Assembly: GCA_022844565.1 (NCBI GenBank)
Contig: JALHLK010000034.1
Span: forward strand, 1 to 56,548
From: Saprospiraceae bacterium
Lineage (GTDB): Bacteria > Bacteroidota > Bacteroidia > Chitinophagales > Saprospiraceae
Length of the DNA stretch: 56,548 nucleotides
Direction: 5' to 3'
The position numbers were made by a program, and so were the translations under genes. A model generated the notes under the pieces. The model saw only the letters and a list, made by a program, of their open reading frames with translations, was not told where the DNA came from and ran no database searches. Position 1 is the stretch's first letter, and each line of letters opens with the position of its first letter. Below, piece after piece: positions 42,750 to 45,629 of this stretch.

Positions 42750-43697
42750 TCAAAGTCCTAGTTTATCCATAAAAGACTTTTCGTAATCCCCGTCTTCCGC
42801 TGGGTATCTTAATACACTTTCAAATTTCCCTGACATCTTTGCTAATGCCCAAATTAGACTTTCTCCTGCTGGAATATTGCTAGGAACTTCATTATAAATT
42901 TTGTCTTTATATGCTTTGTCAGCATCAATAACTTCCCAACCATTATCCACAAAATGTTTAATCAGATCGTCCAAGAATAGTGCTGCTGCTAAATTATGGT
43001 GTAAAAGAATTACATGATTTATTCGTCTATTTGTTAGCTGATAAGCCAATGAGTCGTAGAATAAGGCACGGTTCAGTAAATGGTTTTTATAGTAATCTCT
43101 AAAACCTGAAATGTCAGTTTTGGGTTTTTCTTTTAACCTTGTTACCAAGCGGCTGTCTATATACCAGTCCGAAGCATCAATAGAAACGTGTCCATTTTTG
43201 TAACCTTTTTGCTTCATAAATTCTCTAAATCCCTCAATTTTTTCTTTTGTCTCACCTTCTTTTAAATAAGGAAATCTAAAATATGGGTAGTAGTTTGAGT
43301 AATTTTTTATTATTTCGTCATTTTGGGTTAGTTCAAACTTAAAGGCTTCAAAATTTGTATTTTTGCTGTTAAAGTTTGGGTGACTAAAAGTGTGATTTGC
43401 AATTAAATGACCTGCATTATTCCATGATGTCAAAACGTATTTTCCTTTTTCCGAAGATTTATTTGCTCCCGAAGAAAATAAAACTGCTTTAAGATTGTGT
43501 TTTTTCAGGTTGTCTAGCAAGAACTGATTCCAAACTTTCAATTTGTATTCGCCAATATCATTTGTTTGTCCATCATCAAACGTGAATGATATTTTAGGTT
43601 TGTCTTTTTTTTCGTTTTGAGCATATGATTTGTTATTGCAAGAAGTTGTCAGGCCGAAAACTGCTACTAAAAATAAAAAAATAAAGATTTTTGTCAT
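42750..43697 (-). CDS. Polysaccharide deacetylase-family lipoprotein (CE4/NodB)
   Basis: A predicted lipoprotein of 315 residues (signal ending L-T-T-S-C). NodB motifs are readable: F-T-F-D-D-G-Q (catalytic and metal Asp), N-H-T-F-S-H-P-N (metal His pair), R-F-P-Y-L-K and a C-terminal I-L-L-H-H-N. The family removes N- or O-acetyl groups from sugars such as peptidoglycan, chitin or xylan. It lies 170 bp upstream of the GH16 gene on the same strand and may act with it, but the substrate is not evident. Confidence 0.85.
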   Translation of the reverse strand: MTKIFIFLFLVAVFGLTTSCNNKSYAQNEKKDKPKISFTFDDGQTNDIGEYKLKVWNQFLLDNLKKHNLKAVLFSSGANKSSEKGKYVLTSWNNAGHLIANHTFSHPNFNSKNTNFEAFKFELTQNDEIIKNYSNYYPYFRFPYLKEGETKEKIEGFREFMKQKGYKNGHVSIDASDWYIDSRLVTRLKEKPKTDISGFRDYYKNHLLNRALFYDSLAYQLTNRRINHVILLHHNLAAALFLDDLIKHFVDNGWEVIDADKAYKDKIYNEVPSNIPAGESLIWALAKMSGKFESVLRYPAEDGDYEKSFMDKLGL

Positions 43698-43937: not shown

Positions 43938-43978
43938 AAAACCTTTGAGATTTCGCAATCCCAAATCTCTTCGGTTTT
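43938..43978. repeat. Extended hairpin (REP-like)
   Basis: AAAACC-TTT-GAGATTT, loop CGCAATCCC, then AAATCTC-TTC-GGTTTT: two stems of 6 and 7 bp with a symmetric 3x3 internal loop. It may be a terminator for nearby minus-strand transcription or a REP-like palindrome. Confidence 0.5.
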
Positions 43979-44140
43979 CTTATCAACAAAACGATGTATC
44001 AACTTTCAATTAATAACGTTTAGATTTACTAAATAGTCTCGGCAATACCAATAAAAGGATTACCTGCTAGCTTCAGCTTAAACCCAGATTAAGCATTATA
44101 AATGAACTGCAAGAAAATATATACTACCTAACTTAAGGTT

Positions 44141-44240
44141 GTAATAGCTGTGACGGGGCGCCACAGTTCAAGACTAAATTGACTTGCGGTCAATTTTTAA
44201 CGTCTTTCATGTCCTCAATGCAGCTAAGGCTGCCGACTTT
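44141..44240. repeat. Tandem hairpin unit 1
   Basis: Starts GTAATAGCTG. Hairpin 1: CTGTG-ACGGGGCGC-CACAG (44148-44166). Hairpin 2: AAATTGAC-TTGCG-GTCAATTT (44176-44196). Then TTTCATGTCCTCAATGC and a small GCAGC-TAAG-GCTGC hairpin (44220-44233). Confidence 0.6.
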
Positions 44241-44340
44241 GAATAAGCTGAAATCCAGTGGGTTTCAGTTCACAGCTAAATTGATATTTCGGATATCAAT
44301 TTTTTACGCTGCTCATGTGCTTCACTACTTTTTGCCTAAT
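44241..44340. repeat. Tandem hairpin unit 2
   Basis: Starts GAATAAGCTG, exactly 100 bases after unit 1. Hairpin 4: CTGAAA(T)CC-AGTG-GGTTTCAG (44248-44268). Hairpin 5: AAATTGATAT-TTCGG-ATATCAATTT (44278-44302). Then GCTCATGTGCTTCACTAC. Loop-flanking sequence CAGTTCA...CTAAATTGA is shared with unit 1, while stem sequences differ yet remain complementary. Confidence 0.6.
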
Positions 44341-44501
44341 TTCCTTTCGAATAAAGTCTAATGCTTAATCTGGGTTAAAAGTAAACAATATTTCCAACTT
44401 TGATAGGTGCTTTTGGATATTCTAGTTTACCGAACTGATAAATGGTAAAGTCGATCAGTGTGCCATTGATTTATTCGCAATTTCATCTTTAAAATAGTGA
44501 T

Positions 44502-45629
44502 TTAAGAAGTAACCGTCTTAATCTTGTAAAGACGAATAGACCTCCTTAATACTTGAAAAGACTTGATCAAAAATGGAGTAATAGAAAGTGCAACCAATGA
44601 GAATCCTAAAAATAGAATGTTAGCGCTGTTTGTAAAAACATTGCCTGAGCTACAAATGATGAGGGACAAGATGGTCGCAAAAGGAAGAGAAAGTGCTAAT
44701 AGATTTACAGCCATGTCTAATCGGAATATTTTTGGATGATCGCTTTTGCTTTGTAATTCATTCACGATCGCCATATGAGCGTAAGGCCAGAAACTACAAG
44801 CACTTTGCGGTAAGATGACCATTAATAATATGATTGAAGTTGGCATATTGGCAGGCATCAATGTTATGAAGATTGCACTTATTACAAAGGTAATCCCCGA
44901 TCTCCAAATGATGGATTGTAATAATAAAACGATGCTGCTTTTTTTGAATTTGACCGATAGACCGATGAAAATTAAAACCAAAGGCGTCATAATCACCGCT
45001 AATTTTTCAATTGATTCTTTTAAGAAAAATGGTAAAACTGACACATTGAAACCTAAAAATACCATGCCTAATGCTATGACTACAGCGATATTGATGGGTT
45101 CCTGTACCAATGCCTTGAGTAATTGTTTGACTCTTACCCATCTTTGTGCAAAATCAACCGCTTTTTGCTCTGTAATTTGATAATACCACTGCATGGATAT
45201 CAAATACATCACAATTAAGACAAATATTTTATTACCTACATCAGCAAATGCCGCCATAGCTAAATATTTTTCACCCAAAAACTCTGATATAATGGCAAAT
45301 GTAGATAGACCAGGTGCAAAAGATGGTAAAAGTAATTTGAGTGTTTTGCCTTGAGAACCATTTGGATCAATTTTGCCCAATTTTAAAAACAAAGTAGTAG
45401 CATACCACAGTAAAACATTAAAAACTAATGCTATAAAGGGTAGGAACAAAAAATTTGAATCAACTTCAATCTTTAGCAAAGCAATAAAAACCGTAGCTGG
45501 CAACGCCACATTCAATATCAAAACCTTTAGACTATTGGTCTCACTTCCTCCTCCCATCTTTTTTTTGAGCAAGACACCCAATAAAATAAGAAGTAAGAAA
45601 ACTACCGATTTTTGCAAAGCGATGTTCAT
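44502..45629 (-). CDS. AEC-family permease (auxin-efflux-carrier-like)
   Basis: An inner-membrane protein of 375 residues with about ten helices in two halves. Features of the family: an N-terminal L-I-L-N-V-A-L-P-A-T-V-F helix break, F-A-P-G-L-S-T-F-A-I, and a second-half L-P-Q-S-A-C-S-F-W. Family members carry small organic acids, amino acids or peptides. It lies 32 bp downstream of an exported aminotransferase on the same strand, suggesting a linked substrate. Confidence 0.78.
   Translation of the reverse strand: MNIALQKSVVFLLLILLGVLLKKKMGGGSETNSLKVLILNVALPATVFIALLKIEVDSNFLFLPFIALVFNVLLWYATTLFLKLGKIDPNGSQGKTLKLLLPSFAPGLSTFAIISEFLGEKYLAMAAFADVGNKIFVLIVMYLISMQWYYQITEQKAVDFAQRWVRVKQLLKALVQEPINIAVVIALGMVFLGFNVSVLPFFLKESIEKLAVIMTPLVLIFIGLSVKFKKSSIVLLLQSIIWRSGITFVISAIFITLMPANMPTSIILLMVILPQSACSFWPYAHMAIVNELQSKSDHPKIFRLDMAVNLLALSLPFATILSLIICSSGNVFTNSANILFLGFSLVALSITPFLIKSFQVLRRSIRLYKIKTVTS

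Follow-up and report, generated by a model that had tools for sequence, protein, structure and literature searches.

The intergenic region described here contains two consecutive folded units, and raises the question of whether they belong to a mobile element, to a structured RNA, or to both. The window, that is, the whole stretch of DNA analysed (56,548 nt), is contig C34 of a Saprospiraceae genome of 5.59 Mb in 102 contigs. An earlier note, made from the sequence alone, had seen in it a bounded tandem hairpin element and had proposed three readings: a new family of non-coding RNA, a MITE, or a REPIN moved by a REP-associated transposase.

Organization of the element

The element lies between two minus-strand ORFs, one of 315 aa (42750–43697) that by eye resembles a polysaccharide deacetylase, and one of 375 aa (44502–45629) that by eye resembles a permease of the auxin-efflux-carrier type. 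The element proper spans positions 44083–44374, with termini CCC and GGG, and the window copy measures 302 bp with both target-site duplications (Table 1). The perfect inverted repeat of 18 bp noted before is present (44081–44098/44359–44376), but it runs past the CCC/GGG ends of the element; it reaches 18 bp because two bases of the TTAAA duplications happen to pair. As to coding capacity, the list of ORFs of at least 60 aa showed no transposase in the element, and the sole ORF across most of it was a mechanical one of 60 aa with a TTG start (44179–44361). This intergenic region also has a hairpin, GAGATTT..AAATCTC, seen by eye upstream of the element at 43948–43985.

Table 1. Features of the element in the window. 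R1 is the covariance model of the internal unit described in the text.
Feature	Position	Strand	Basis
Left target-site duplication, TTAAA	44078..44082	.	5-bp direct repeats across copies
Left terminal inverted repeat (TIR), CCCAGATTAAGCATTA	44083..44098	+	TIR pattern, paired copies
First structured unit, type B	44146..44213	-	R1 match (E 3.2e-13, copies of this unit being part of the set used to build R1), covariation, fold
Type B, outer stem	44170-44174/44202-44206		
Type B, inner stem	44176-44183/44189-44196		
Type B, second hairpin	44148-44152/44162-44166		
Central hairpin, GCAGC..GCTGC	44220..44233	.	By eye and folds
Second structured unit, type D	44246..44319	-	R1 match (E 2.6e-18), covariation, fold
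Type D, outer stem	44272-44276/44308-44312		
Type D, inner stem	44278-44287/44293-44302		
Type D, second hairpin	44248-44253/44263-44268		
Right terminal inverted repeat, TAATGCTTAATCTGGG	44359..44374	-	TIR pattern, paired copies
Right target-site duplication, TTAAA	44375..44379	.	5-bp direct repeats across copies

The two units are homologous (77–84 % identity within two common blocks) and their starts are exactly 100 bases apart, as had been observed. Each forms the two hairpins attributed to it, and the isolated units folded better than most of 200 shuffled sequences on both strands, with 2, 1 and 1 shuffles as good in three of the four strand folds and 17 in the weakest, that of the + strand of the first unit. 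Whole elements likewise form long hairpins on either strand; the central hairpin lies close to the tip of this long palindrome and is swapped for other sequence in some copies.

The element belongs to a family of MITEs

A blastn search of the same genome with the element returned 69 matching pieces (40 of 119 candidate places were scored), and the TIR pattern was found there at 90 places, compared with one for the reversed control pattern. When TIRs were paired within the stretches retrieved, 57 pairs were obtained, of which 48 delimit copies of 177–306 bp, both 5-bp duplications counted in. The nine pairs left out of this 48-copy set are three mini-elements of 61–63 bp (L056, L067 and L075), which are hardly more than TIRs and duplication, and six pairs of 336–486 bp taken to be joined to a wrong or distant partner. 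The genome contains dozens of copies in three main size classes that differ by their modules: one of 182 bp with arms A and C and no unit, one of ca. 247 bp with arms A and D and one unit, and one of ca. 305 bp, to which the window copy belongs, with arms B and D and two units. Four of the 48 copies (L070, L072, L074 and L078) are diverged sisters without a unit.

Exact 5-bp direct repeats are found beside the CCC...GGG ends in 39 of the 48 copies, versus 14.4 on average and 25 at most when the right flanks were shuffled (20,000 tries), and the per-position identity is 45–47 of 48 inside the duplication and 9–21 of 48 at ten positions outside it. An empty site was found for a sister family with TIR CCCAAATTGGTCATTAGA: the site is paralogous, with the joined flanks of L083 matching L204 and L205 through the target, and nearly matching L206 and L207. 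The feature in the window is thus a non-autonomous DNA transposon (MITE), as shown by its TIRs, duplications and copies, in agreement with the second of the three readings. The element had no match in the plasmid collection, the viral contigs gave 0 matches for the unit pattern, and a literature search among open-licence papers retrieved no description of this element.

No transposase with the TIRs of the element was recognised in the one long element among the TIR matches listed (ca. 100 of 208), a 1.7-kb element on contig C24 with a cargo ORF inside. This copy (L079:1375–2742) shares the TIR type of the element, and the inner-hairpin loop of its unit D contains an ORF of 434 aa with no Pfam match at 0.001. 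The cargo is bounded by inverted copies of GTTGTATGC (2 matches, 0.01 expected), and a 28-base piece of its border has an 89 % match at L099 and L100. In another copy (L055:1180–1260), an unrelated hairpin, CTCGTCCAAAAGACGAG, replaces the usual short stretch of the right arm.

The internal unit is a conserved two-hairpin module

Read on the window minus strand, the module (ca. 70 nt) consists of ATGA, an outer stem of 5 bp, an internal loop GTTAA/A, an inner stem, GAA, a second hairpin and a C. The covariance model R1 was built from 31 own-genome units kept of 42, leaving out near-identical units and an intron-linked unit from L067. In a structure-blind alignment of these 31 units (MAFFT), 94.0 % of the cells were paired and 10 of the 23 pairs showed double changes (88 double-change cells); on each of five measures, none of 500 shuffles equalled it, and slid pairing reached 27–44 %. 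Two larger alignments were made by cmsearch and are hence fitted to R1: that of 36 loci from relatives (partly overlapping, with some contigs present twice) comprised 41 matches, 34 of them distinct, with double changes in 22 of the 23 pairs and 95.9 % pairing versus 67.8 % in shuffled sequences, and that of 97 distinct units from 99 loci had 95.1 % pairing versus 73.2 % shuffled and 26–42 % slid, with a covariation score of 0.547 versus 0.182. In the latter, 20 of the 23 pairs change on both sides and still pair, a result in favour of the compensatory changes noted before.

In the 36 units less than 85 % alike, conservation is 0.91–1.00 for the unpaired ATGA, GT, A, GAA and the C that follows the second hairpin, and 0.36–0.56 for the four variable pairs of the outer stem. 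The contrast is small when all columns are averaged (the top base has a mean frequency of 0.67 at paired and 0.75 at unpaired positions), because there is little variation in some stem pairs, namely A-T pairs of the inner stem and those at the foot of the second hairpin. The mean pairwise difference in 31 elements that contain unit D was 0.0225 at unpaired and 0.0657 at paired positions (ca. threefold), 0.0212 in the adjoining arm and 0.103 in the TIR. Their outer stem reads GCTGC/GCAGC in 14 elements, GCAGC/GCTGC in five (plus four with a G-U end) and GCAAC/GTTGC in two, the remaining cases being six single variants, some of them mispaired. An extension of the outer stem of the module by a U-A and a further pair was rejected: the U-A is invariant and the other pair is standard in 0 of 31 cases, so the extension carries no information. 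For the internal unit, selection on a folded strand has good support, so that the readings as a non-coding RNA family and as a MITE may both hold.

Paired changes also occur in the terminal repeats

The left and right TIRs of one element agree at 726 of 792 positions in 44 elements (shuffled maximum, 705). Agreement was 504 of 558 positions in the 31 ACGC-type elements (shuffled maximum, 501) and 191 of 198 in the 11 AAGC-type elements, a weaker result that was reached by 103 of 5000 shuffles; the test omits the diverged sisters L070, L072, L074 and L078, and two of the remaining 44 elements fit neither class. Rare TIR variants were seen on both ends of the same element, such as CCCATATTAAGC in L033 and L057, which differ in size. 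Palindromic arms evolve together, through the history of their source copies or through hairpin-guided repair, and paired stem changes could therefore arise without any RNA function.

Since the mirrored TIRs show that paired arms can change together, we retained as a rival explanation that the element is a MITE and nothing else, its paired changes arising when palindromic DNA undergoes hairpin-templated repair or template switching, and its folded strand having no function. The sharing of variants by TIR pairs, above chance overall, and the long hairpins of entire elements on both strands favour this explanation, but it leaves unexplained the invariant unpaired motifs of the module, the excess of G-U over A-C on one strand and the presence of the module in elements with different ends (see below); we consider it unlikely.

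One strand of the module appears to fold

A G-U intermediate on one strand is an A-C on the other, so that the two should be equally frequent in a cruciform. The ratio of G-U to A-C on the module strand was 90:13 in the 97 units, 34:4 in the 36 units with less than 85 % identity and 20:3 in 27 units with less than 80 %; a structure-blind alignment gave 98:18 (96 units, one unit of more than 90 nt being omitted) and 30:9 (30 units). These ratios tally sequences, not events, and when counted by distinct position and type they are 16:3 for the 36 units but 20:12 for the 97 units. As a control, the TIR arms of the 48-copy set, sisters L070, L072, L074 and L078 included, gave 39:8, with 30 of the 39 at a single position fixed in the family, and 9:8 without that position. 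The G-U excess points to one folding strand, the window minus strand, and supports a folded single strand, either RNA or DNA.

The same module is found with different ends

We classified the ends of 94 of the 96 own-genome unit matches (the other two were not fetched) by the TIR present within 260 bp of the unit, a measure of nearness that is no proof of the unit lying inside the element. The TIR type of the window, or close sisters, was found near 74 matches and CCTAAATATCTAAAAT ends near three; the latter type is probably a diverged sister of the window type, because their arms match (E 5e-11). Other end types were GTAACTATTCAGGACCCCG (seven matches), TGCTCCGTC (one), GGGGAGTTCTAAAAACTC (four, one of them filed by the script under TGCTCCGTC) and GGAAAGTTG (two), and three matches had no recognised TIR within that distance. 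At GTAAC-type ends, five of the seven places were scorable: the 8-bp duplications are exact in L193 and L202, whereas six, two and five of the eight bases agree in L195, L200 and L201, respectively. Duplications, of 5 and 8 bp, are thereby shown for two end types, and the other types rest on the TIR sequence. Of 14 loci from genomes G004 and G005, 11 have ATAC at the start of the best inverted repeat that surrounds the unit. Candidate transposase families for these ends might be IS66-like and IS630-like.

With the units masked, the arms of different end types share an identical stretch of 16 of 16 bases (E 6e-4), a 21-base stretch at 86 % (E 0.025) and a 13-base palindrome (E 0.026); because 20 shuffled runs produced 0–3 matches each, chance may account for the 21-base stretch and the palindrome. 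In our reading, elements that differ in their ends have exchanged modules, and perhaps arms. Because the module also resides inside mini-transposons whose ends are quite different, it appears that selection acts on the folding of the module itself.

A different explanation for this distribution would be that the units are tiny mobile elements in their own right, inserting into the tips of hairpins by single-strand transposition of the IS200/IS605 or REP type or otherwise, and that the MITEs are their landing sites. Several observations by eye fit such behaviour: in L195, L203 and L208, a unit sits within the inner-hairpin loop of another; in three comparisons (A/B, C/D, and the 167- and 235-bp members of a sister family), arms with and without a unit diverge exactly where ATGA begins; and in L170 a unit lies inside a hairpin resembling domain V of group II introns. 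The unit of L067 at a group II intron junction agrees with it too. In contrast, the 3′ border varies among the three arm comparisons, neither a duplication nor an enzyme was found for the unit, Rfam at E ≤ 1 recognised no intron in L170, the Y1_Tnp loci of the genome contain no unit (see below), and only three of the 94 own-genome matches lie apart from a recognised TIR. This explanation appears rather improbable to us. By eye, the inner units in L195, L203 and L208 begin at ATGA following ATTGATC.

Comparison with known RNA and mobile families

No Rfam family matched the window at gathering thresholds, and in 22 loci from relatives only two tRNAs, lying away from the units, were found. The genome has five matches to Y1_Tnp, and these loci (ca. 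1.5 kb per side where the contig allows) gave 0 R1 matches at E ≤ 10. REP or REPIN sequences moved by a RAYT were therefore rejected, this part of the initial proposal not being supported. One of these clusters (L212/L213/L215; C11:56067–57869) contains tandem RAYT-like genes flanked by a different palindrome, CCAGCCCTGAAAGGGCGTAATAC.

The integron attC site has the core sites RYYYAAC and GTTRRRY at the foot of its hairpin. This candidate, or a gene-cassette site, was also discarded: by eye, GTTAA follows and TTTA precedes the outer stem, the core sites being absent, and a cassette-like cargo within a unit is a single case (L079).

In L067 the unit lies between domain I of a group II intron and a remnant of the intron-encoded protein, which prompted us to consider that the unit derives from such introns, and the units of L111 adjoin an ORF that, by eye, reads like an intron-encoded protein. 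However, among 30 intron loci of the family (from 42 matches; some loci truncated by contig ends), L067 alone had an R1 match at E ≤ 10; domain I runs on without a unit in L136 and L151 (by eye), and Rfam at E ≤ 1 recognised no intron in L111. An intron origin was rejected on the basis of these loci, the 29 others examined having no unit, and we give it practically no credence.

Distribution of the module

The further copies that had been sought exist: R1 identified 96 units in the own genome at E ≤ 0.1 (for 93, the E-value was below 0.01), and at E ≤ 0.01 there were matches in 10 of 298 genomes of the family, own genome included. The distribution is patchy, five of the ten belonging to the genus of the window. 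E-values are per one genome, about three false genomes being expected at this limit; the weakest matches are in G003 (0.0043) and G282 (3.3e-4), and the other seven relatives are at 7.8e-6 or below. A distant unit-like hairpin pair, GGAACTGCGACCAACCGGATCGCAGCA, was seen in L113 and L117 (G003 and G002), in a stretch that, by eye, we take to be an RHS-repeat gene. A Crocinitomicaceae MAG (JAGNZC), which belongs to a different order, has a unit flanked by GAGCCGTGTGAAG and GACGGTTC (L170:1400–1530), which by eye resemble the halves of a group II intron domain V; two more unit-like matches occur at positions 813 and 1002 of this locus.

Relation to neighbouring genes

The elements are situated between ORFs, at median distances of 135 and 120.5 bp (66 elements, i.e. 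69 minus three without a flanking ORF). In 71 of the 72 unit-bearing elements, the module had the same or the opposite orientation as the upstream gene in 38:33 cases (p 0.64) and as the downstream gene in 31:40 cases (p 0.34); a smaller count, with one unit-less element (L070) removed, gave 26:25 and 25:26, respectively. With respect to local GC skew, the module was on the G-rich strand in 27 and on the C-rich strand in 24 of 51 cases, a result that is weak because the loci are short, and a replication-strand bias was rejected. The intergenic position could suit regulation of host genes in cis, by an RNA or a terminator that the MITEs have spread, and an effect on co-transcribed genes has been proposed for BOX repeats (PMC3049150). 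The orientation is balanced to both neighbours, which led us to reject host-gene regulation, and we consider it very unlikely.

Discussion

Our preferred explanation is that the window contains a MITE carrying two modules of ca. 70 nt, most likely kept because one strand must fold, and we think this probable. The MITE would be moved by a transposase that acts on its short TIRs and leaves an AT-rich duplication of 5 bp, with the two module copies riding within it. Covariation and the G-U excess suggest that the module is kept through the folding of one strand, which could be an RNA transcribed through the element or single-stranded DNA. Because it shows no orientation with respect to host genes or local GC skew, the module more likely serves mobile elements than neighbouring genes. 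Against a role for the module stands the fact that the 182-bp copies have spread although they lack it. The proposals of a new structured RNA family and of a MITE may both be right, as an RNA-like unit riding in MITEs. We tentatively suggest, as a possibility rather than an expectation, a new class of transposon-riding RNA: ca. 70 nt with two hairpins and one selected strand, with invariant UGA and GAA beside the outer stem and an asymmetric internal loop, which would be passed between mini-transposons that use different transposases and would help its carrier.

MITEs are usually read as ends plus filler, and here some of the filler is a conserved structure common to different ends. This raises the question of whether non-autonomous elements benefit from a folded RNA or single strand, for which the R1 model and genomes JAGQWX and JAKQLF are ready material for testing.

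REP and REPIN sequences, which are associated with RAYTs, are high-copy intergenic hairpins, as are the elements described here. Unlike them, our units reside inside TIR elements with target duplications, are absent from the Y1_Tnp loci of the genome, and combine two unequal hairpins and an asymmetric internal loop. BrickBuilt, from Porphyromonas gingivalis, is also a Bacteroidota MITE with a repeated inner unit, and near-identical TIRs are found in different MITE-like elements (PMC4596501); its inner unit is described there as a 23-nt tandem minisatellite, whereas here it is a conserved two-hairpin module with different ends.

The closest precedent would be the BOX elements of Streptococcus pneumoniae and S. 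suis, compared by description. These are likewise modular, MITE-like repeats with a variable number of inner modules predicted to fold and with mutual insertion (PMC3049150): BOX, RUP and SPRITE insert into each other, some BOX are expressed, and S. suis has one type of boxB with both boxA/boxC and boxE/boxF ends around it. The module described here differs in its host, a family of Bacteroidota, and in its occurrence in several end types; what it adds beyond BOX is covariation between families, with a preferred strand marked by the G-U excess, and two duplication lengths (5 and 8 bp) among its end types.
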